Origin: Alphaproteobacteria bacterium
GTDB lineage: Bacteria; Pseudomonadota; Alphaproteobacteria; UBA7985; JAUIBT01
DNA length: 64,000 nt
NCBI GenBank assembly: GCA_030428255.1
Contig: JAUIBT010000004.1
Coordinates: 1-64,000, forward strand
Direction: 5' to 3'
The position numbers were made by a program, and so were the translations under genes. How positions within the stretch are numbered: the stretch's first letter is position 1; every line of letters begins with the position of its first letter. Below, piece after piece: positions 24,947 through 41,759 of this stretch. The notes beneath the pieces are model-generated. The model was not told the origin of the DNA. It saw only the letters and a list, made by a program, of their open reading frames with translations, and searched no databases.

Positions 24947-25828
24947 CTAGTACTCCAGCAAGTCCTCGAAGACCTCCATCAGCTCATAGCACATGATGAC
25001 TTCGCGGGTTTCTGGATCATAAAAGGCATTGGCTTCATCACAGTCTGTAAAGCGCATGTTGAGCGTCTCAGGCAACTTGAGGTCACGCTCCAAGCGCGCT
25101 TCTAGATAAGGCAACCAAGCCCAGTCTTTCAGCCAAGCCTCATAGCGGCGGTGCTGCTTGGTTTTTCCGCGATCAATGTCGATTTTGATGCCCGCTTTGC
25201 CCTGATCCTTCCAGCTTTGATCGCGCTCGACCTCCAGCAGATAGCGCCAATCCTCGCTTTGTGCGACGGCAAGCTCCTCGCAGCGCTCGATATCCAGAGC
25301 TTCATCTTCTATATCGAAATCCACAAACCAGTCTGCATACAAGTCCTCATTGCGCCCCACCAGCAGGCACATGTGGGAAAAAAAGCGCTGCATGTCCAAA
25401 GAGTGTTCGTCGGCAAACAAGGTTGTGTCCTCCAGGTCATTCTCTTCGGCAAAGGCCAGCCAAGAGACCGCACTGACGAACAGAGCATCGTCGAGCTGTT
25501 CCATCTGCTCGGTGCTCAGATCAGCGTCGCTTTCTATGGTGTCGAGCAAGTAGATCACCGAAAAAGCGTCGGCGGCGTCTTCCTCACGACCCAAGACCGG
25601 CAGCGCCCAAAGGTCCACAAGCGCGTGTCCAACTTCGTGCAGCAACACCTTCAGTGTATTGCCGAGTACGAAGCTTTGCTCGTCCAACACTCGCTCGCGG
25701 ACCTGAGCCTGCGCGCCAGCGGCGGCCAGGCCCAACACCCCCAGAGCCAGGGCGAGCGGCCGTAACACCGCGCGCAGGCGCCGCGTGCTGCAGGCGAGAG
25801 CAAGGGAAACGCTTTGGGTGTAACTCAT
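24947..25828 (-). CDS. DUF4344-type exported metallopeptidase homologue
   Basis: A 293-residue protein with an N-terminal hydrophobic signal (about 22-42, ending GAQAQ) and a zinc-protease helix LLHEVGHALVDL (H64-E65-V-G-H68), followed by GREEDAADAF, which could supply the third ligand. The pattern matches proteins annotated as DUF4344 putative metallopeptidases. It is strongly acidic. No substrate is known. It converges on the methyltransferase with a 19-base gap. Confidence 0.75.
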   Translation of the reverse strand: MSYTQSVSLALACSTRRLRAVLRPLALALGVLGLAAAGAQAQVRERVLDEQSFVLGNTLKVLLHEVGHALVDLWALPVLGREEDAADAFSVIYLLDTIESDADLSTEQMEQLDDALFVSAVSWLAFAEENDLEDTTLFADEHSLDMQRFFSHMCLLVGRNEDLYADWFVDFDIEDEALDIERCEELAVAQSEDWRYLLEVERDQSWKDQGKAGIKIDIDRGKTKQHRRYEAWLKDWAWLPYLEARLERDLKLPETLNMRFTDCDEANAFYDPETREVIMCYELMEVFEDLLEY

Positions 25829-29050: not shown

Positions 29051-29860
29051 ATGACGCGCTTTGCTGGCCTTCTGCTGGTCCTGCTGCCCTTATTCGTCTC
29101 GGCCTGTTCCAACCTGACCGAAGAGGAAATGGCGCAGCTCACCTTCATCGCTGAAGAGGCTCTGATCGAGGTGGCTGGCGACGCACCCAGCGATCTGTCC
29201 AAGATCCCGGCGACCCCATCGCAAACCGCTGCGCCTGCCACAGCAGCGAGCCCTGCAGGCCAAACCCGCCGCAGCGTCGCCTCGGCCGTATCGGCCAAAA
29301 TCCCGCTCGCCAGCCCCCAGGGCGCGGACGCCTCTGTATGGCAAGCGCGCACGCTGGTCGATGCGCTCAATCTGGACCCCTCAGACCACAAGACTTGCTT
29401 TCGCATTCTTGGCCGCAGCTTTTTCAACCGTTGCGATCAGGCGGTGGACGCCCAGACCTGCGATGATCAAGGCTGCCTGACCTATCGCGTACCTGCTGGC
29501 GGCGATCTAACCATCCCCCACGACTACGCCAGCTTGACGCCGAACTTTGTCCCAAGCGGCCAACTTGGCGCCAAACCTGGCACCCAGAGCCAGGCCAAGC
29601 CGCAAGCGCGCGAGCAGGCACAAGCCAACCCTCAAAAGGCGACCGCAAAAGCCGCCCAGCAAACAGCGAAATCCAAACAGCTTGCCAAGGCCCAAGCCAG
29701 CTCCCAGCAGCAGGCTCCCGCTGCCGCAGTGGCCATGGACAAGCCCGAAGCACAGGCGATCCCGCCGGGCGTCCCGCAAGACATCAAACCTGAGCCCGCC
29801 GGAAGCGATTTGGCCTCAACCGAGTTCTTTAAACAAGGCGGCTTTCCCCTCTCGTTCTGA
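29051..29860 (+). CDS. Lipoprotein A with four-cysteine module
   Basis: Unrecognised exported lipoprotein, 269 residues. The signal ends in lipobox V-S-A-C19. After the lipidated cysteine comes an acidic helix (NLTEEEMAQLTFIAEEALIE), a linker, then a compact module with C116, C128, C137 and C142 spaced C-x11-C-x8-C-x4-C followed by VPAGG, and a low-complexity Gln/Ala/Lys-rich tail (about 180-245). AAGGGA lies just upstream of ATG 29051. The next gene encodes a paralogue with the same spacing. Two disulfides in the periplasm are likely. Function is unknown. Confidence 0.82.
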   Translation: MTRFAGLLLVLLPLFVSACSNLTEEEMAQLTFIAEEALIEVAGDAPSDLSKIPATPSQTAAPATAASPAGQTRRSVASAVSAKIPLASPQGADASVWQARTLVDALNLDPSDHKTCFRILGRSFFNRCDQAVDAQTCDDQGCLTYRVPAGGDLTIPHDYASLTPNFVPSGQLGAKPGTQSQAKPQAREQAQANPQKATAKAAQQTAKSKQLAKAQASSQQQAPAAAVAMDKPEAQAIPPGVPQDIKPEPAGSDLASTEFFKQGGFPLSF

Positions 29861-29897
29861 TTGCTGTCCTTCTAACTGCCCGCCACAGGAGCCCTCT

Positions 29898-30920
29898 ATG
29901 CGATCCGCTCAGCTTTGCAGTTTCGCGAGCCTTACCGCCCTCGTCCTGGGCCTGTCCGCCTGCGTCAACCCGAGCCAGACCGAAGTCGCGGCCTGGGAGG
30001 CCCTGGCGGTTGAGGCTCTGGAGCTGAGCGCCGAGGAGGCTACACAGCTGCCCAAGGACCAGATTTACGAGCCATGGGCCGATGCTCAAAGCCTGCCGCG
30101 CGCAGGCGAGCACCGCCCGCTTGGCAATACCATCGGCCAGGAGATTGCCCAAAGCACGGCTCAAGGCTACGGCCAAGGCTTAGTGAACACTGCGCCCAGC
30201 TTCCAGCCCGACCGCTTTACCCGCGAAATCAGCCGGGCCGATTGGGAATTGGCGCTGCAAGGCTACCTCTATGACTATCCCGAAGCTCCGCCGGTCACAG
30301 CGGTCTCGCCCGCCAGCGTTGGCCAATACGGAGCCAGCGATCAGCGCTTGGTGCTGGCTGGGGTTCCGGTGAGCCAGCTCGCAGCCCTTGAAGCCGAGGC
30401 CAGCCGCGACCAACGCCCGCGCCCCGATTGCCTGCGCATTTTGCGCGCCAGTATCGTCAACTATTGCAGCATTGCGACGCTGGCCCAGGCCTGCTTTGGC
30501 CGCACCTGCCAGTACTTCGACATCCCCGCCGGCCAAGGGGTCGAGCTGCGCCCCGGCTTTGACAGTTTGGTCGGCCAGCGCCACCCGCGCGACGGCGACC
30601 ATGTCATCCGTGCGGACCGCGCCCGCTATGCCACGGGCTCGCACTTCATTCCTTTGGCGGTGGCTTGGCCCGATCCTGTGCCACGCCAACCGCCCCCAGT
30701 CAAACAGGTGCCCCCAGTCAAACAAGCGCCCCCAGTCAAACAAGCGACCCCAGTCAAACAAGCGCCCGCAACCCGCGCTCCAAGCTCAGGTCCGACAGGC
30801 CCCTCCGGCCCGAGTGCCCCCGCGCCCGCGACGCCTTCAGCAACGCCCTTGCCAGGGGCGGTCTCGCCCGACGACGCTGAGACTTGGGATTCCGAGCCCC
30901 TGTTCGCACCCGCCAACTAG
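29898..30920 (+). CDS. Lipoprotein B with four-cysteine module and PPVKQ tail
   Basis: Paralogue of lipoprotein A, 340 residues; ATG 29898 has AGGAG 7 bases upstream. The lipobox is L-S-A-C22. The region after the cysteine aligns without gaps to lipoprotein A (C-x-N, E, A, A-x-E-A-L). The module has C178, C190, C199 and C204 with identical C-x11-C-x8-C-x4-C spacing and ends IPAGQG. Between them is a unique region (about 45-170). The C-terminus holds a proline-lysine repeat (PPVKQ, four units) and a Pro/Ser/Ala tail, perhaps reaching to peptidoglycan. A longer open frame beginning inside gene A is rejected. Confidence 0.82.
   Translation: MRSAQLCSFASLTALVLGLSACVNPSQTEVAAWEALAVEALELSAEEATQLPKDQIYEPWADAQSLPRAGEHRPLGNTIGQEIAQSTAQGYGQGLVNTAPSFQPDRFTREISRADWELALQGYLYDYPEAPPVTAVSPASVGQYGASDQRLVLAGVPVSQLAALEAEASRDQRPRPDCLRILRASIVNYCSIATLAQACFGRTCQYFDIPAGQGVELRPGFDSLVGQRHPRDGDHVIRADRARYATGSHFIPLAVAWPDPVPRQPPPVKQVPPVKQAPPVKQATPVKQAPATRAPSSGPTGPSGPSAPAPATPSATPLPGAVSPDDAETWDSEPLFAPAN
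30693..30764 (+). repeat. In-frame 18-bp repeats encoding PPVKQ units
   Basis: Four tandem copies based on CCCCCAGTCAAACAAGCG (30693-30710, 30711-30728, 30729-30746, 30747-30764) encode PPVKQV, PPVKQA, PPVKQA and TPVKQA in the tail of lipoprotein B. The near-identical codons suggest recent expansion. Confidence 0.9.
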
Positions 30921-30954
30921 CCCATCTCGAACAACCACCCACTGAGTGCCCGCC

Positions 30955-31437
30955 ATGATTGCCAATCGCCTCCGCCGCTATGCCCTAAGCCTTTTGAGCC
31001 TCGCTGTCCTTATGCTGCCGCTGCTGGGCGGCCAAGCGCTGGCTTTCAAGCGGCCCGTCATTATCTCAACGGGCGTCAGCAACGTGCAGAAGACCGCCAA
31101 GGGCGTGTCGATGGACCTGCGGATCTTGATGCGCAACGACAACGGCTATGCGCTGACCATCGACAAGGGCGCAGCGCTGCTGGGCTTGCAGGGATTCCGG
31201 GTCGGCGCGATGAGCGTCAAGCACGCTGTTCAGCTGCCCCCCTATGGCATGGAAGAAGTGGTGCTGACGCTTGCCGGCAACAGCCAGCAGCGCCGCTATA
31301 TTGCCGAGACGCTGCGCAGCCGGGCGATCGTCGACTATGCCTATAAGGGCTACCTGTCGGTGCGGGAGTTCGCCGATCCCATCGAGATCAAAGAGGTCAG
31401 CCGCTTTCGCGTGCCCGCGCGCCTGCAGCGGCGCTAA
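30955..31437 (+). CDS. Small exported protein, possibly LEA14/WHy-like fold
   Basis: A 160-residue product with an N-terminal signal (about 6-30, ending GGQALA) and a beta-rich mature part. The stretch MDLRILMRNDNGYALTID followed by an interval and QLPPYGMEEVVLTL is loosely like LEA-2/WHy domains, which bear one conserved NPN-like turn, but I am not sure. A GTG at 30946 could add three residues. It is 34 bases after lipoprotein B and completes a three-gene envelope cluster. The 36-bp repeat array starts over its stop codon. Confidence 0.65.
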   Translation: MIANRLRRYALSLLSLAVLMLPLLGGQALAFKRPVIISTGVSNVQKTAKGVSMDLRILMRNDNGYALTIDKGAALLGLQGFRVGAMSVKHAVQLPPYGMEEVVLTLAGNSQQRRYIAETLRSRAIVDYAYKGYLSVREFADPIEIKEVSRFRVPARLQRR

Positions 31438-31595
31438 CCCGCAAACCCCGCAGGTGGATTTGCGGTAAACAAACCCGCAAACCCCGCAGGTGGATTTGCG
31501 GTAAACAAACCCGCAAACCCCGCAGGTGGATTTGCGGTAAACAAACCCGCGAACCCCGCAGGTGGATTTGCGGCAAGCAAGCCCGCAAACCCCGA
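31436..31595. repeat. 36-bp tandem repeat array, 4.4 copies
   Basis: Units at 31436-31471, 31472-31507, 31508-31543 and 31544-31579 plus a partial copy to 31595. Each carries CCGCAAA and TTTGCGG arms around a 13-nt centre, so each could fold into a 7-bp hairpin. The first three units are identical; the fourth has three or four changes. There are no spacers, so it is not a CRISPR array. It fills the gap between two convergent genes and could act as serial weak terminators. Confidence 0.93.
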
Positions 31596-31628: not shown

Positions 31629-34600
31629 CTAGGCCACGCGCGCATCTTCAACGATACGCTGTATTCGAACTGCCGCGGTGTTGTGTTGCATCCGCTTTGC
31701 AACTGCCAAGGTGCCGTAAAGCAAGCGAAAGGCGGGCTCGCGCCGACCACGTTTGAGGAGCACTTCGGCATAGCTGGCCAGCATCTCATTCAATCGCAAG
31801 GAAAGGCCGTTGCGCTTTGCAGTTGCAATAGCGCGAACCAGCAGTCGGCCTGCCGAGGCATAGTCACCGCTTCGCGTCAACCAGTACCCCTTCATATGCA
31901 TCGCGTCCGCCGCAAGACCAGGCATGCCCATCAACTTGGCGTACTCCAGAACGATGTTTGTCTTTGCCATGAGCGCGGCAGAATCTACAGCATCTTTGTT
32001 GCCACTGTACTTTGCAACTCGGACCTCGCTGAGCATAATTTGATAGCGTATGTCTTCATGGCCTCCGACCTCCGCCAGGCTTCGTGCTTGTCGGAGCAGG
32101 TCAGTAGCAGCGGCGAAATCCGTTCGCGCAACCAAGCGTGCCAAATGGTTCGTAAAGATCGCGCAGGCTCGAAATTTGTCATCATCTTTAAGGGTCGCCA
32201 CGATATCCCTTAGCTGCTGCTCTGCGGTCTCAAGGCCCCCTGTTAGATGTTCTACGACCGCCAAATACCCTTGCGCAATTTGCGCCTCATCATTCTGACG
32301 TCCATCATTCGAGTCTATGATTCTCTGAAGGCGACTGCGGGCCGGCCCCAATTTGCCTCGATCGATTTGTGTCACCGCCAGGTTCAAGAGCATGCGTGTG
32401 AACTGGCGGCCGCCGTCCTCTCTACCTTCTATGTCTCTGTTGATTTCTATCGCTTGTCGCAAGTGCGCCACCGCATCGCGCAAATTTCCCTGCGCATAGC
32501 ACGTCAAGCCAACTTCGTTGTAAAGCCACACCACCTCATCAGCGTAAAGTGCGTCGAGTTTGATCTCGCCGTCCTTGTTGCGTCCGGAGAGTTCCCAAGC
32601 CTTGCGCAATATCCAACGCAAACGAACACGGTACTCTTCAAAATACCCGCGCGTGCGCTGTCGTCCATTTGCGGTCTCGTGGCCAAATTCCTCAAAGCGG
32701 GACACCACCGCGATTGAAAAACCGGACCGTACCAGCGCCAGAGCTGCCCTGAGCGCCTGGACCTGAGTCCTGTTTGGCGCGTCGGCGAAGAGCCAAGGCT
32801 CGGGAATGTTCGGGTCAACACGCAAATCTGGATATTGGCCGAGGCCGACCATGAGATCTGCAATCATGCGATAGGCCTCGTGACTGAGCCGGGGGGCGTC
32901 CGAAGGCAGCAAAGCAAATATGCTCGGCGCAAAGGTGTTGCCCTTCGCCATCTCTACGGTATTGCCGCCAAGCATACGCACAACGAATTTTTGAATCTGC
33001 CGATGAACTGCGTAGCGGAACTCATAGCGATCTGCGGGCAGTTCGCTTCCTGCAAGGCTGGGATGCGGAGCAATGCGAAATACAAGCCCGCGTTCGCACA
33101 GCGCTGCAAGCGCAAAAGCCATCAAAGTCCGCCGCCTGTCCCCACTGCCTGGCGGTAGAGTGTCGAAATAAGACCGGAAGACCGGCAGGCGCACCAGCAC
33201 GTCGATGCTGACGGGCGCATGGATAACGGCCAAGTGGCGCAAAATATGAAAATGGAGTTCAGAGTCGTTCCAAGGATCACCGATTTTGTGAGCACGCTGA
33301 TATACGTCCAGCACCGACTCGACCACCAGATGCTCCCGCTGTGAAAGACTGAGGGTTCTCAATCGACCAATTGTAGTCTCGAAGAACCGCGTTGCCCGCG
33401 AGGCGCCCTCGATCATATTGGGCGCATTCAACAATATATGCTGCGCGGCGGCCATCATAATGGTTAACAAAAATCTATTTTCTGCGAGTGATTTTCGTGT
33501 CTCCCGCCACTTATTATTATCCTCGTGAGCGGTCTTGTATCGCTTTTTTAATAATTCTTTTACATTTTTTATGCATTCGTCGGAATTTAAATCCCCCAGA
33601 TCGCTAATATCTACTATTTCCAGCTCAGGCTTATCTCTCAAGCAGGCTGCGAATTCTCTTATCGCTGTCTTATCCCTATGATTTTTGTAGCCTGCAATAT
33701 TAGCACCGATGCCATGTTTGTCTTCTGGTCGCCAGATATTCTCGATCTGCTCCCGAAATTCCACGGCTTTGTCCTTCACAGATGTCGGAGCGGTGGCGTT
33801 AGGCCCTCTTCCCTCAGCGATCGCACAGAACCCAAGGGCAAGTGGCAGAAAGTTATTAACCAAGAGGTCGGTTGGATTTACGGGTCGAAGGAAGTGCACA
33901 AAATCGCTACAGCTTCGGTCGTAGGTCTCTGGCACTTGAGTCTGATTGACCACAGATTGCACCGACCCGCGATCAAACTTGATGGCTGATGCGCTGACCC
34001 TGCGCGCGATGGACTGACGTCCGCGAAGCCGAATGTCGCTGCGCGCAATCAAACGGTGATTGAGCGCCGGCGTACTGATGTCATCTAACGACAGACTGCT
34101 CGGTTTGTCGCTGCTCTTCGCGGGCGACACCGACCATAAAGCACTGACTTTCTTATCGTCGCAGATCGCGATAACATCAATCGGCAGATCTCTGGCTTCG
34201 TTTGACGCCAAATAGCTCAATAGATCTTCAATCTCGGCATTCTTCGGCCGCAGCTTTTGCGTGAAAAAGGCATCAACAGGGCAAATAGCCAGCAAAATGC
34301 GAGGTTGAAAATGGCTATCTCCGCTCGGATTTTTAAACATGATATGGCTGATTTTTTCTTCTATAAGACGACTAGTCTCTCGAAATATAGAAAACAATTC
34401 TATTATTTTATTACTTCTCGCCAAAAATCTGAGTTGATTTTCGATTTTCCCGGCATGCTGCTGTGCGCTGTTATTTAATTGTGCAAAAATGTCATTTGTA
34501 ATCGTGGCCGAACTTATTGCTCGAATAACGCCAGTCTCAGGTGACAACGAATAATGACCGCCGTCTTCTAGTTTGGGTGATAAAAATTCTTGCAATACAA

Positions 34601-37600
34601 GTGCAGGGTTCTCGTTCAATAATACGCTATCGATATTATCATATATGGCACCTGCCTGCGAAACCAGTTTCAGCAGTGATTCTGTGAGCATGGAAAATAC
34701 GGACCCAATTTCGGTTGCCAAATTCAAATTGACAAAAATGGCGCCAAAAAACCACGGCCCTGCGGGCGGCCCAATCCATGAGCTTTGCTCGGAGTCGGAT
34801 CCGGTGTCACGCCTGCAGCCCTGTCCGTAGTGTGCGTGGGCGGCAAGAATATAGGATGTCAAGCCAAGCCGGGTTGAGAGGGTAGAAATGAAAACACCTT
34901 TCCCCAAGCCTGTGTCGGCTGCCACCGTGTAGAAACGACGCCCGGTATTAGGCTCGTTCGGAGCTGCGTTATTCAGGCGCTCGCTCGCAACCGCATCAAC
35001 AAAGTGATCGAATGATCGAATGCCGGTTTTGGGCGAATTTGATGGCCAGGCAACAATTCTTTTTTGTGCTTCGGATCGTTCCCCATCGCCTTCCGTCGTT
35101 CCAGGAGATACGCCAGTGGTGTTTATTGCATACCAGAAGTCGGTAATATCGCTGATCAACCGATAGCGATAAAAGCGGCGCGGGAAAAATACCAGAAGAC
35201 GTCGGTCCAACTCATCTGTGTCAATCGAACCCCCGCTCGGCGCGTGAACGGTTTCGAAATTGGCGTCGCGCAGCTGCGGCGGCTCTCGCCAATCTCGCCA
35301 CCAAGCTTGCCATTCGCCTTCCAGCTGGTCCAAGCCCGCGTTGAAGGCCCCGGTAATCAGCCCCAACCAGACCCCATCAAGCGCCGCAAGCCGCGCTTTC
35401 AGATCGCGCAAATAGGCTTGCAAGTCGCCAGTGCTCGGCTTGTCGCCAGTGCTCGGCTTGTCGCCAGTGCTCGGCTTGTCGCCAATGCTCGGCTTGTCGC
35501 CAAGGCTCATCTTTAGCACCGCATCCAGCACCTTTACGGGCATTTCCAGGTAGGGCTCACTGGGGGTTTCGTGGCTGCGATGTCGCTTCACCTCGTCCGA
35601 TTTCGATCCACCATTGTGCGGCGCGCTCGGCGAAAATCTGCAATGACGAAGCTGCAACGTGGAGCTTGAACCGATTATTTTATCGACCGTCAGTTCATCC
35701 GACCGGCCAAAGAGAATCGAAATCGCCTTTGTGTTGCAGCCGACTGGCTCCTGCGCCAGATCGGCGCCGATACAGCCCACCTGATCCACCAACCCTTTCC
35801 ATATCTCTTCGGCGCTCGTGAGGTTCGAAACTCTGTCCTTGCCAGCATTAAGGGCGTCCAACACCTGGGCCTTCTTATGCTTTAGGGCCTCCGTCAAGGC
35901 GCTTGTGAGCTTGAGCATGCGATAGAGCCAATCGATTGAAATCGATTTCGGATCCGGTGATCCGGTGACCTCGGCAGAAACCTTGCCGCCGCCAAAGAAA
36001 ATCGTGTGCGCACCATATTTCTTGTACAGTTCAGCCGCCTTCCTCGTCCGCGCGGCCACATCGTCGGTCTGCGCCATGAGTACAATCGCGTTGTAAGCAA
36101 CCGTACGATCACTGTCGGAGATGAACTGACGCAGGGGACGCAACAGATCGGTTTCGGTCATCCCAAGACCAACGAACAAGGTTGGAGACGCTGAAAATGC
36201 CAGCTCGATGCATTCATTGACCGTGTCCCGGTTCTCGTCATCGCGCAAATACAGGTCCAGAATGTCGCGATCCGTAATCACAAGACGACTGTCGTTCTGC
36301 GCGATCCCATGCAAGTGAGCAACCGAAGCGACCGCTCCATCCGTGGCGGTTGCGAAGCCGACCATGTCGGAGGCCCGCTCTGGACGAAACGCAAAGGAGC
36401 GGAACAAAGCGCCGAGACCATCAAAGTGCTCAAGCCCGCCGCGATCATGTGAATTCGTAAGCTCGGGAAACGAATCTGGAAGTTCCAAACCCTCAGTTCG
36501 CTTGTAACCGAAATCCTCGAAGTATCGCTCCACCTCAAAGTCATAGTTGGTGGTCAAAATACGATCGATACCAAATTTTCGAATTATCTTTTCAAGCGGA
36601 TCTAGACATGGATCAACCATCGAACTGCGCGAAGTAAACTCCGCGCCGTCAATGGAACCACAAAGCAGGTCTCGACAAGAATTCCAGTCCCTTGGTTTCG
36701 GACCGCCAAGTGGATTCTTCATCAGCGTTAGGGCCACGCCACAGATATATCGATCCGTTGGTGTCAAAACGAACTGTTCTGACTCATCCAGCTTTTTTAT
36801 AATGTCATCAAATAGTACGTGCCATCGATTACCATTTGGCAACTCCTTGCGTGCATTCTCTAGAATTTTTTTAGCTTTATCTTTTTTAAAAGGATAAAGT
36901 ACATTGTAAATGCTGGATTTATTTCTAATGCTATGAGGAAATTTACCTACATTTTCACTTGATCTAGCTTTATATTTTTCCTTAAGTTTACTTATTCTCG
37001 TGTTTATTTTTTCATGCGCATTTCTTGCTTCGTCATATTCTAGAGCATCGAATATGATGTTCTCCGCATGCCCTCTTTCATCGACAAGTAAGATTTTTGC
37101 TATGTCCTCAAATTTTAAGTAACCGTCTTCGCTTTGCGATAGTTTTAAATTATCTATAAAATCATAATATGAATTCCGCAGTATATCTCCTATTGGAAAA
37201 ATGTTCTTATCCTTTAGATACATCTTAACTCTTTCGAGAACTTCTTTTAGTGGCGCACCTTTGTTCTTATTAATGCTGCATCCGTAAAAATTTCTTAACT
37301 CCATAAGGCCTGGATCCTTTATATTGAAAACAGGTTCGTAACCTATTAACAAATCATGGAGTTGTTGAGCAACTTCCAGGACAACCGGCAGACTATCGCC
37401 GTGTAAAAACCCTTCTTTTCCGGATTCTACATGGAGGAAAGTGGTATTGAGTTTTCTAACTTCTTCATGCGCATAGCCAACTATATACCTTTGCTGACGA
37501 ACCCAGCGCTTTACTTGGCCACAATCCTGCGCTGTTGCTCCGTCAGCGGCAGCGGTCCCACTTGGAAATTTCTCAAGCTCATCTTCTATCGACCCAAGTC

Positions 37601-37883
37601 TGCTATGCGACGCTTGCGCCAAGTCCAGAAACGCTTTGGAAAGCTTCTTGGCAAACTCGATTTGCCGAGATTTCCATTTTTGCCAGTCCAAGCGCCCGAG
37701 TCCGACCGAGACACCGGCCCCAACAAATGCCGTCAAATTATGCGCGTTCAAAGCCTGGAAGAGGATTTGTTTCGCCCGGCCCTCAATAAGGGATAAATCG
37801 AGAGTATCGTCGATTTGATGAATTGTATGCGGCCAATGCTGCAATTCTTCATGGCGTCGAGCGAAATGATTGTCTTCACTCAT
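31629..37883 (-). CDS. Giant SIR2-like / STAND-like / TPR protein, putative anti-phage sensor
   Basis: One open frame of 2,084 residues from ATG 37883 (GGAGG 4 bases upstream). N-terminal SIR2-like elements: FVGAGVS with G55-A-G57, LTTNYD (443-448, catalytic-type N446), HLHG (523-526) and a late LFVGLGMTETDL (about 566-577), the pattern of NAD-consuming SIR2 effectors. A linker with KPSTGD repeats (about 791-820) follows. A P-loop-like segment ADTGLGKGVF has K995 but G instead of S/T after it; hydrophobic-acidic strands ILLAICPVDAFF (about 1196) and DVIAICDD (about 1238) are Walker B candidates. The last 300 residues (about 1790-2080) are TPR-like helices (YNEVGLTCYAQGNLRDAV). The architecture matches SIR2-STAND defence proteins such as Avs5 in plan but is far longer. 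Internal AT-rich segments suggest transfer. The sensed ligand and function are inferred only. Confidence 0.8.
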   Translation of the reverse strand: MSEDNHFARRHEELQHWPHTIHQIDDTLDLSLIEGRAKQILFQALNAHNLTAFVGAGVSVGLGRLDWQKWKSRQIEFAKKLSKAFLDLAQASHSRLGSIEDELEKFPSGTAAADGATAQDCGQVKRWVRQQRYIVGYAHEEVRKLNTTFLHVESGKEGFLHGDSLPVVLEVAQQLHDLLIGYEPVFNIKDPGLMELRNFYGCSINKNKGAPLKEVLERVKMYLKDKNIFPIGDILRNSYYDFIDNLKLSQSEDGYLKFEDIAKILLVDERGHAENIIFDALEYDEARNAHEKINTRISKLKEKYKARSSENVGKFPHSIRNKSSIYNVLYPFKKDKAKKILENARKELPNGNRWHVLFDDIIKKLDESEQFVLTPTDRYICGVALTLMKNPLGGPKPRDWNSCRDLLCGSIDGAEFTSRSSMVDPCLDPLEKIIRKFGIDRILTTNYDFEVERYFEDFGYKRTEGLELPDSFPELTNSHDRGGLEHFDGLGALFRSFAFRPERASDMVGFATATDGAVASVAHLHGIAQNDSRLVITDRDILDLYLRDDENRDTVNECIELAFSASPTLFVGLGMTETDLLRPLRQFISDSDRTVAYNAIVLMAQTDDVAARTRKAAELYKKYGAHTIFFGGGKVSAEVTGSPDPKSISIDWLYRMLKLTSALTEALKHKKAQVLDALNAGKDRVSNLTSAEEIWKGLVDQVGCIGADLAQEPVGCNTKAISILFGRSDELTVDKIIGSSSTLQLRHCRFSPSAPHNGGSKSDEVKRHRSHETPSEPYLEMPVKVLDAVLKMSLGDKPSIGDKPSTGDKPSTGDKPSTGDLQAYLRDLKARLAALDGVWLGLITGAFNAGLDQLEGEWQAWWRDWREPPQLRDANFETVHAPSGGSIDTDELDRRLLVFFPRRFYRYRLISDITDFWYAINTTGVSPGTTEGDGERSEAQKRIVAWPSNSPKTGIRSFDHFVDAVASERLNNAAPNEPNTGRRFYTVAADTGLGKGVFISTLSTRLGLTSYILAAHAHYGQGCRRDTGSDSEQSSWIGPPAGPWFFGAIFVNLNLATEIGSVFSMLTESLLKLVSQAGAIYDNIDSVLLNENPALVLQEFLSPKLEDGGHYSLSPETGVIRAISSATITNDIFAQLNNSAQQHAGKIENQLRFLARSNKIIELFSIFRETSRLIEEKISHIMFKNPSGDSHFQPRILLAICPVDAFFTQKLRPKNAEIEDLLSYLASNEARDLPIDVIAICDDKKVSALWSVSPAKSSDKPSSLSLDDISTPALNHRLIARSDIRLRGRQSIARRVSASAIKFDRGSVQSVVNQTQVPETYDRSCSDFVHFLRPVNPTDLLVNNFLPLALGFCAIAEGRGPNATAPTSVKDKAVEFREQIENIWRPEDKHGIGANIAGYKNHRDKTAIREFAACLRDKPELEIVDISDLGDLNSDECIKNVKELLKKRYKTAHEDNNKWRETRKSLAENRFLLTIMMAAAQHILLNAPNMIEGASRATRFFETTIGRLRTLSLSQREHLVVESVLDVYQRAHKIGDPWNDSELHFHILRHLAVIHAPVSIDVLVRLPVFRSYFDTLPPGSGDRRRTLMAFALAALCERGLVFRIAPHPSLAGSELPADRYEFRYAVHRQIQKFVVRMLGGNTVEMAKGNTFAPSIFALLPSDAPRLSHEAYRMIADLMVGLGQYPDLRVDPNIPEPWLFADAPNRTQVQALRAALALVRSGFSIAVVSRFEEFGHETANGRQRTRGYFEEYRVRLRWILRKAWELSGRNKDGEIKLDALYADEVVWLYNEVGLTCYAQGNLRDAVAHLRQAIEINRDIEGREDGGRQFTRMLLNLAVTQIDRGKLGPARSRLQRIIDSNDGRQNDEAQIAQGYLAVVEHLTGGLETAEQQLRDIVATLKDDDKFRACAIFTNHLARLVARTDFAAATDLLRQARSLAEVGGHEDIRYQIMLSEVRVAKYSGNKDAVDSAALMAKTNIVLEYAKLMGMPGLAADAMHMKGYWLTRSGDYASAGRLLVRAIATAKRNGLSLRLNEMLASYAEVLLKRGRREPAFRLLYGTLAVAKRMQHNTAAVRIQRIVEDARVA
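35424..35513. repeat. In-frame 18-bp repeats in the SIR2-STAND gene
   Basis: GTCGCCAGTGCTCGGCTT recurs at 35424-35441, 35442-35459 and 35460-35477, with variants at 35478-35495 and 35496-35513. On the coding strand it encodes KPSTGD/KPSIGD units, a flexible linker between the SIR2-like and STAND-like parts. Confidence 0.9.
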
Positions 37884-38158
37884 GTGTCCTCCACTTCGCA
37901 AAGGGCCCTCATTACCGTTTTTACCCACGCAGTCAGGCAGGTTTTTACCAATTTGGAGGGCTCGAAAAATCTAACGCGCTTTGTTGTTGTTAGCCTTAGC
38001 AAACAAAACTATAAATATCAATTAATGCTCATTTTTGTATACTGGCCTGCTTGACCACGCCAGCCAGGGCAGCAGGTTCGTCGCTCTAAGTTAGATTTTT
38101 CGCAAACTGTTGCTCAGAAGTGTTGCTCAAAAGTGCTGCTAGGGTCTCGCGGATTGCG
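37884..38158 (-). promoter_or_regulatory. AT-rich upstream region of the SIR2-STAND gene
   Basis: About 275 bp between the split glycosyltransferase and the giant gene, AT-rich around 37970-38045 and hence the likely promoter. It holds two copies of GTTTTTACC (37917-37925 and 37941-37949, 24 bases apart) and a 13-bp tandem repeat (TGTTGCTCAGAAG at 38108-38120, TGTTGCTCAAAAG at 38121-38133). I cannot place -35/-10 boxes with confidence. Confidence 0.4.
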
Positions 38159-39940: not shown

Positions 39941-40678
39941 CTAACGCCCGGCCTCCTGTTCGCCGCCCGGCTCCAACGCCAGCGCCATGACCGCGCGACC
40001 CGGCCCCTTCAGCCAGGCCTCGCCCGCGTCGCGCTGCGCCCGCCCGCCGGGGCACAGGCCATCGCAGGTGGCCCAAAACCGGGGGCCGTGGTTCATCTCG
40101 GCCAGATGCGCCACCTCGTGCGCTGCCAGGTAGTCGCGCACGGGCTCTGGCGCCAGGCCGATCCGCCAGGAAAACGACAGGCTGCCGCGCGCCGAGCAGG
40201 AGCCCCAACGCGTCTTCTGATCACGAATAGAGATGCGCTTGACCCGCTTGCCCAGGCGCTCGGCCTTGGCCAGGACCCGGGGGCTCAGGTCTTTGCGGGT
40301 CCAGTCGGCAAAAAAATCCATCACACGGCGGGCGAAGAACTCGGGCGCGCCGCCAACGTGCAGGCTGCCGTCTTCCAGCCAAACGCTGCGGCTGTGGGGC
40401 TCATGCAGCAGCAACAGCGTGCCGCCATCAAAGGGGATGCTGGCACCCGGCTGAATGGCGGGCTGCTGGTCCAAGTCGGCCAGGCGTGCGCTCAGCCAGT
40501 CCTTGTGCTGCTCGGCAAAGCGCAACCCCATCTCCAGCGGCAAGCTTTGCGGCAGGGTCACGCGCGCCGACCGCGAGCGGTGATCCAGGCTCAGCTTGAC
40601 CCGCCTGGCACGCGGATGGTGACGCAGGGTCAGGCTGAGGCGTCGTCCGCCGTCAAGGCAAAGCTCTCGAGTTTCCAA
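39941..40678 (-). CDS. YgjP/DUF45-type zinc metallopeptidase
   Basis: SprT-like/YgjP family protein, 245 residues. It has the core ARRVKLSLDHRSRSARVTLP, DQKTRWGSCSARGSLSFSWR and the zinc site HEVAH (187-191) with H197 in NHGPRFW, all hallmarks of the family. No ATG precedes the conserved region; I place the start at TTG 40678, which overlaps the end of the AraC-Ogt gene by 49 bases and gives the usual family length. The longer ATG frame runs antiparallel to no domain and is unlikely. Its physiological substrate is unknown. Confidence 0.83.
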   Translation of the reverse strand: METRELCLDGGRRLSLTLRHHPRARRVKLSLDHRSRSARVTLPQSLPLEMGLRFAEQHKDWLSARLADLDQQPAIQPGASIPFDGGTLLLLHEPHSRSVWLEDGSLHVGGAPEFFARRVMDFFADWTRKDLSPRVLAKAERLGKRVKRISIRDQKTRWGSCSARGSLSFSWRIGLAPEPVRDYLAAHEVAHLAEMNHGPRFWATCDGLCPGGRAQRDAGEAWLKGPGRAVMALALEPGGEQEAGR

Positions 40679-41601
40679 TTTTTGTTTTCCAGGGCTAACA
40701 GCAACTTCTTGCGGCTTATACCCCAACGATAGCCGCCAAGGCCACCGTCTCCGCGCACCACGCGATGGCAGGGGATAATCAGGCTGACATTGTTCGACGC
40801 ACAGGCCCGCGCCACGGCGCGTTGGCCCGCCCCCATGCCCAGGGTCTCGGCGATCTGGCTGTAAGAGCGGGTCTCGCCCGGCGGGATGGCCCACAGCTCG
40901 CGCCAGACGCGGCGCTGAAATGCGGTGGCCTGGATGTCCAGCGGCAGATCCGGGTCGGGCAGATCGCCCGCCAGATAGCGCAGCACGTCTTCCAGCGAGT
41001 CCTGCAACAGCTCGGCGTCTTCTTGCAGGGCTGCGGCGCGCGGGAATTCAGCTTTCAACGCGTCCACCAGGCCCTCGCGGTCGGGACCAAAGGCCAGAAA
41101 GCACACCCCCTGCGCGGTGGCCGCCAACAGCACCAAGTCCAAGTGGCAGGGCGCGATGGCAAAGGCAATCTCAACCCCTGCCCCGCCCTTCTTATAGGTG
41201 CCGGGCGACATGCCCAGCGTGGCAGCCGCTTGCTCGTAGAGGGCGCGGATCGAGCCATAGCCCGCCGCATAGGAGGCCTCGGCCACGTCAGCGCCCTGCT
41301 TCAACGAGGCACGCAGGCGCTCCATCTTTTTGGCGTTGGCGTATTCGCGCGGCGAGATACCCAGCGCGCGCTTAAAGGCTTTCTGCAAGCTGAAGGGCGA
41401 GACATGCAGCGCAGCGCCCAAGGCGTTGAGGGTCACGCTGGGCAGCGGTGCGTCCGGTTCCGCGCCTGGCGCGGCATCGGCGGCCAACAGACCCGCTTCC
41501 GCCTCCAGGTGGGCATCGATCAGTTGACAGGCTTGGGCCACCAGGTCGCTTTGGCGATCACTGGAAAGCTGGAATAGGCGAGAAGAGAGTGCATGTGTCA
41601 T
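40630..41601 (-). CDS. AraC-HTH plus O6-alkylguanine-DNA alkyltransferase (Ada-like, no zinc domain)
   Basis: Fusion of an AraC-type helix-turn-helix region (about 56-137, with SLQKAFKRALGISPREYANAK) and an Ogt/MGMT suicide alkyltransferase domain (about 145-305) with active-site C278 in IIPCHRVV and the flanking RAVARACASNNVSL. It resembles the C-terminal two-thirds of E. coli Ada but lacks the N-terminal zinc domain that senses methylphosphotriesters, so any self-regulation would differ. The roughly 20-residue tail overlaps the next gene. Likely repairs O6-methylguanine. Confidence 0.9.
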   Translation of the reverse strand: MTHALSSRLFQLSSDRQSDLVAQACQLIDAHLEAEAGLLAADAAPGAEPDAPLPSVTLNALGAALHVSPFSLQKAFKRALGISPREYANAKKMERLRASLKQGADVAEASYAAGYGSIRALYEQAAATLGMSPGTYKKGGAGVEIAFAIAPCHLDLVLLAATAQGVCFLAFGPDREGLVDALKAEFPRAAALQEDAELLQDSLEDVLRYLAGDLPDPDLPLDIQATAFQRRVWRELWAIPPGETRSYSQIAETLGMGAGQRAVARACASNNVSLIIPCHRVVRGDGGLGGYRWGISRKKLLLALENKNWKLESFALTADDASA

Positions 41602-41759
41602 GTCGAGCAGCCTAGCGCGCTCGCCCTCCCGCCGCTATCCGAAGTTTGCTCGTTGGCTCAATCCTTCGACGGCCGCACAAACCAGCACAGTCGTATGGAA
41701 GCTCCAACGCGGGTCGCGCGCGCCCTAGCGGTATCCCTTGGCGGGGTCCCCTGGCGGGA

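Follow-up and report, generated by a model that had tools for sequence, protein, structure and literature searches.

Two adjacent lipoprotein genes, A and B, encode a protein family that is real and undescribed in the libraries searched. They lie in the window, the whole 64,000-nt stretch of DNA analyzed here (Alphaproteobacteria bacterium, GCA_030428255.1, contig JAUIBT010000004.1, positions 1 to 64,000, forward strand). The two proteins share a four-cysteine module with a predicted Ig-like fold, and a third gene, C, lies directly downstream. The explanation we favor, tentatively, is that A, B, and C are a genus-specific co-transcribed envelope set in which A and B carry a disulfide-stapled Ig-like binding or spacer module. 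The features of the three genes are as follows.

29051..29860, + strand: gene A, lipoprotein of 269 aa with lipobox VSA-C19 (open frame and orthologues)
29108..29179, + strand: conserved stretch of A after the lipid-bearing Cys (18/24 residues invariant; ungapped match to B)
29393..29542, + strand: four-cysteine module of A, residues 115–164, predicted mini β-sandwich (alignment, shuffles, and model)
29543..29758, + strand: Ala/Gln/Lys-rich, fast-evolving linker of A (15% of residues invariant)
29759..29857, + strand: conserved C-terminal tail of A, IPxGVPQxIxPEPxGxDLxSTEFFxxGGFPLxF (24/33 residues invariant)
29898..30920, + strand: gene B, lipoprotein of 340 aa with lipobox LSA-C22 (open frame and orthologues)
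29964..30035, + strand: stretch of B after the lipid-bearing Cys (ungapped match to its A counterpart)
30426..30575, + strand: four-cysteine module of B, residues 177–226, paralogous to the A module (alignment, shuffles, and model)
30666..30863, + strand: Pro-rich, repetitive linker of B (9% of residues invariant)
30864..30917, + strand: conserved C-terminal tail of B, ending W-D-x-E-P-L-F-A-P-A-(N/Q) (three-genome comparison)
30946..31437, + strand: gene C, secreted protein of ~160 aa with a signal peptide and no cysteine (open frame and orthologues)

The sequences of the window were compared to those of two congeneric genomes (JAUIHE010000071.1 and JAUIDR010000039.1, both MAGs labelled Alphaproteobacteria), whose orthologues are 53–58% identical for A and 56–58% identical for B. 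The mechanical ORF list starts B upstream at a TTG; the ATG at 29898 yields a signal peptide and a lipobox. The lipobox pattern [LVI]-[ASTVI]-[GAS]-C is present in all three genomes, as VSAC, VSGC, or VTGC in A and as LSAC or LTAC in B. The linkers of A and B taken together are 9–19% invariant across the three genomes, compared to 62–78% for the modules and 56–73% for the tails. The invariant fraction in A is 75% in the stretch after the lipid-bearing Cys, 62% in the module, 73% in the C-terminal tail, and 15–19% in the linkers. The corresponding values for B are 78% in the module, 77% in the stretch after the module, 9% in the linker, and 56% in the tail. The preliminary description had reported different low-complexity tails in the two proteins, and their compositions bear this out: the A tail is Ala/Gln-rich (28% Ala and 21% Gln) and the B tail is Pro-rich (32% Pro). 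An 18-bp repeat, present in 4.5 copies within the B linker, codes for (A/T)-P-P-V-K-Q-like units. Each tail also ends in a conserved motif that is absent from that description. As read from the sequences, A and B have the anatomy of a tethered protein consisting of a lipid anchor, a rigid module, a flexible spacer, and a conserved, putative docking peptide.

The A tail ends Q-G-G-F-P-L-S-F, and the same pattern is found in both orthologues. The outer-membrane barrel signal is polar-x-G-x-x-hydrophobic-x-hydrophobic. The fit of the A tail (29759–29857) to this signal may be coincidence; A is no barrel.

The cysteines of A are Cys19 (lipid-bearing), Cys116, Cys128, Cys137, and Cys142, and those of B are Cys22 (lipid-bearing), Cys178, Cys190, Cys199, and Cys204, together with Cys7 within the signal peptide. 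These positions bear out the exact common spacing, C-x11-C-x8-C-x4-C, noticed on first inspection. Homologues with conserved cysteines exist: both congeneric genomes retain every cysteine and the spacing. Invariant positions in the six module sequences are the four cysteines (C1 to C4 in order), an N-x-C at C2, a Pro six residues past C4, and an S-L near the end. The window's own genome holds only two copies of the module, those of A and B. Nei-Gojobori dN/dS values are roughly 0.17–0.22 for A, 0.12–0.37 for B, and 0.05–0.15 for C, and only their direction, purifying selection, is reliable because dS is near or past saturation.

The module was originally described as unrecognized, and it indeed has no match in Pfam, NCBIfam, PHROGs, or PDB sequences. 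A PADLOC search with the full-length A and B proteins returned nothing, and a literature search found no description of such a four-cysteine module. Module profiles, which are insensitive because they were built from six sequences, gave nothing convincing in the order's 8 genomes outside the genus, in the class (~385 genomes), or in the phylum (398 genomes). The weak profile hits that were sampled and read were a partial M16-type peptidase match, a permease-like frame, and frames with stops or without cysteines; these are taken as chance matches. One further weak hit comes from the same genus as the M16-type hit and has an equally long frame. A DNA pattern with the exact spacing gave 10 matches outside the genus compared to 6 for a reversed control; of the eight that were read on the listed strand, most are interrupted by stop codons within the module, and not one is preceded by a lipobox. 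The TrmH-like and Ada/MGMT loci in the order's related families contain neither the trio nor a diverged trio, and gene C is absent from the class sample of genomes. Viral contigs gave no match, plasmids searched with C only gave no match, and a fold search among viral proteins gave no match at E ≤ 0.001. Within the limits of the six-sequence profiles, the A-B-C set appears restricted to the genus, which is the only one sampled from its family.

A genus restriction could also be a detection limit, with the module being a diverged branch of a widespread periplasmic β-sandwich family. The insensitivity of six-sequence profiles is in favor of this explanation, and the module motif N-x-C ... C ... 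C ... P-x-G presumably resembles motifs of exported bacterial proteins. However, no significant hit was obtained in the 385 class genomes, in the 398 phylum genomes, or at the syntenic loci of the same order. We consider a diverged branch possible and somewhat unlikely.

AlphaFold2 was run on the six module sequences and returned a model with a pLDDT of 80.9, in which the core is at ~90 and residues 11–60 are at 80–91. The modelled strands span residues 12–15, 18–21, 27–33, 36–42, 47–49, and 56–59. The module is thereby predicted to be a six-stranded, Ig-like mini β-sandwich of ~50 residues. A two-residue turn joins strands 27–33 and 36–42 in the model, with Cys32 (C3) opposite Cys37 (C4). Another two-residue turn joins strands 12–15 and 18–21, with Cys11 (C1) beside residues 22–23, the site of C2. 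We infer from this geometry that the disulfides would be C1–C2 and C3–C4, each stapling one hairpin. The cysteine spacing would then be fixed because the two predicted disulfides staple tight hairpins, and no catalytic role is needed. The genome encodes DsbB, in keeping with the formation of disulfides, and LolA, in keeping with sorting to the outer membrane, which is the probable destination of A and B. The periplasmic disulfide setting suggested in the preliminary description agrees with the lipoboxes, the hairpin geometry of the model, and DsbB; the disulfides themselves are predicted.

Comparison of the model with solved structures gave designed mini-Igs as the best matches (Z 6.3–6.6), followed by a phosphodiesterase domain (Z 6.0) and by complement domains and the tendamistat family (~5). 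VIA-align treats Z 8 as clear, and the best score for the module is Z 6.6. The mini-Igs DIG14 and DIG8-CC (7skp, 7sko, and 7skn) superimpose with an rmsd of 1.6–2.0 over 50–52 residues, but they are artificial proteins; hence there is no common descent and they show the Ig-like arrangement only. PMC9530121 is probably the paper on their design. Periplasmic Ig-like domains such as the C-terminal domain of the pilus chaperone FimC are likewise β-sandwiches (Z ~4.7–5), but the FimC domain is larger, superimposes with an rmsd of ~4 or more at 10–15% identity, and has no detectable sequence relation to the module. The structural scores would mean an Ig-like arrangement at most, possibly just a common arrangement.

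Of the natural small domains that stand alone, the tendamistat-type α-amylase inhibitors match the fold best, which raises the idea that the module is a tendamistat-like inhibitor blocking a surface hydrolase (an amylase, another glycosidase, or a protease). These inhibitors are small β-sandwiches of similar length to the module, and the set compared, HOE-467A (1hoe, Z 5.0), 1bvn_T (Z 5.2), and parvulustat (2ker, Z 4.6), aligns over 51–52 residues at 19–20% identity. The tendamistat fold is six-stranded with ~70 residues, and its Z of ~5 against the module is a level common to many Ig-like folds; the aligner rates it as a common arrangement, and the designed proteins score higher. The module also differs from these inhibitors in being embedded in anchored lipoproteins. 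The PF01356 profile matches neither A, B, their modules, nor anything else in the genome (E ≤ 10), and the neighborhood suggests no target. An inhibitor function is therefore improbable.

A compact domain with four invariant cysteines would also suit a metal-binding or thiol-redox module, in which the cysteines bind metal or switch between the thiol and disulfide states. Thioredoxin-like or zinc-ribbon sites would be expected to have a CXXC pair, and the module has none. The lipobox directs export and the model sets C3 and C4 as a hairpin pair, so we give a metal or redox function little credence.

The two proteins resemble each other beyond the cysteines. The gapless A/B block has identities at 17/55 aligned positions. 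BLASTP of A against B, with a search space of these two proteins and without SEG or composition correction, gave E = 1e-9, a value that is inflated because low-complexity filtering was off and is not to stand alone. With phmmer, E was 7.5e-8 for the segment holding the module and 2.5e-4 for the segment after the lipid-bearing Cys. The latter value supports the likeness claimed for that segment, in which C-x-N and A-x-E-A-L lie 15 residues apart in both proteins. A shuffle test was scored on the 56 non-cysteine columns only. The module score without the cysteine columns was 37 for the window pair and 41 as the 3 × 3 mean of the orthologues, compared to a shuffle maximum of 19; in both comparisons, 0/20,000 shuffles reached the observed score. 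Low-complexity parts do inflate the pairwise scores, but a chance resemblance between unrelated lipoproteins has a negligible probability and is refuted by the cysteine-free shuffles and by the orthologues, both sets of which retain the pattern, and the six modules give one confident model.

On these alignments, A and B are paralogues that arose by duplication. Module identity is ~60% among the A copies and ~30% between A and B, and the B copies likewise resemble B copies. The duplication therefore predates the genus, since A copies cluster with A and B copies with B. The original wording, a module amplified by duplication, holds for the duplication and for the lack of a named family; amplification is not supported, as the genome has two copies from one duplication and the family was found nowhere outside the genus.

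Gene C begins ~25–35 bp after B, its probable true start is the ATG at 30955, and it is 79% identical to its orthologues. C has a weak match to LEA_2 (PF03168) over 79 residues, with E values of 0.0023 for the window copy and 6e-4 for the best orthologue. The likeness to LEA_2/WHy-type proteins is confined to this weak profile match of C, which is below the curated PF03168 cut-off (18.8 compared to 25.4 bits for the window copy). The preliminary description had proposed looking for the pair together with the downstream 160-residue protein, and A-B-C is found in the window and in both congeneric genomes. The order TrmH-like gene, A, B, C is common to all three genomes; in one of them, a small extra frame lies between the TrmH-like gene and A. 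In the two relatives, a peptidase gene, which we take to be YgjP-like in both, and an Ada/MGMT gene directly follow the trio. The Ada/MGMT gene of the window is located at 40642–41604, distant from the trio because ~8–9 kb intervenes, comprising a gene for a 2099-residue SIR2-like/TPR protein and a glycosyltransferase gene. The trio is intact while its downstream flank has changed, which supports A-B-C being one unit. No promoter-like site was found upstream of the trio. Co-transcription of A, B, and C is suggested by intergenic gaps of ~35 bp, and their products would belong to one envelope complex; the evidence for complex formation with C is the gene order in three genomes.

Several other elements were observed near the trio. 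A 36-bp tandem repeat (31436–31594; 4.4 copies, 95% match) lies directly after gene C. Each unit has the potential to fold into a hairpin (CCGCAAA...TTTGCGG). The whole array resembles a terminator when read on the minus strand, and its folding surpasses that of every shuffle (z −3.8). The 2099-residue gene (31629–37928, minus strand) encodes a SIR2-like domain and C-terminal TPRs, and the N terminus of its product is weakly similar to the ThsA/Dsr1 defence proteins. Neither congeneric genome has the 8–9 kb stretch with this gene at the corresponding position, and the gene may be an inserted defence gene. Within it, an 18-bp tandem repeat (35424–35502; 4.4 copies, 98% match) codes K-P-S-T-G-D units. 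A gene for a DUF4344 putative metallopeptidase is located at 24947–25828.

In the favored explanation, each module would consist of two β-hairpins with one disulfide each (C1–C2 and C3–C4), and the tight turns would set the cysteine spacing. The module would be a rigid binding or spacer domain that is stable in the oxidizing periplasm without a large core, the binding or spacer function being what we infer from its features. Fast-evolving disordered linkers would flank it, and a conserved peptide particular to each protein would close the chain. A and B would be anchored by their lipid, the module would offer a surface for binding, and the flexible linker would allow the C-terminal peptide to dock at another site of the complex. 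The docking partner would most likely be C, the likeliest soluble partner, or else a peptidoglycan or inner-membrane partner. The docking of the B linker and tail is a guess because the full-length B model failed (pLDDT 33, unusable). A more specific version, which we hold to be rather doubtful, is that a recently born genus-specific stapled Ig-like mini-domain was duplicated into a two-lipoprotein, three-gene complex that would link the outer membrane to other layers of the envelope by way of fast-evolving linkers and conserved docking tails.

The finding overturns no known principle. The module is lineage-specific, serves a structural or binding role of a generally known kind, and is not a new type of system; its family is small and probably structural. 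The module models well from six sequences only, which makes it an easy structure target. As an orphan domain of one lineage, duplicated within an operon with its four cysteines kept in place, it offers a small, testable example.
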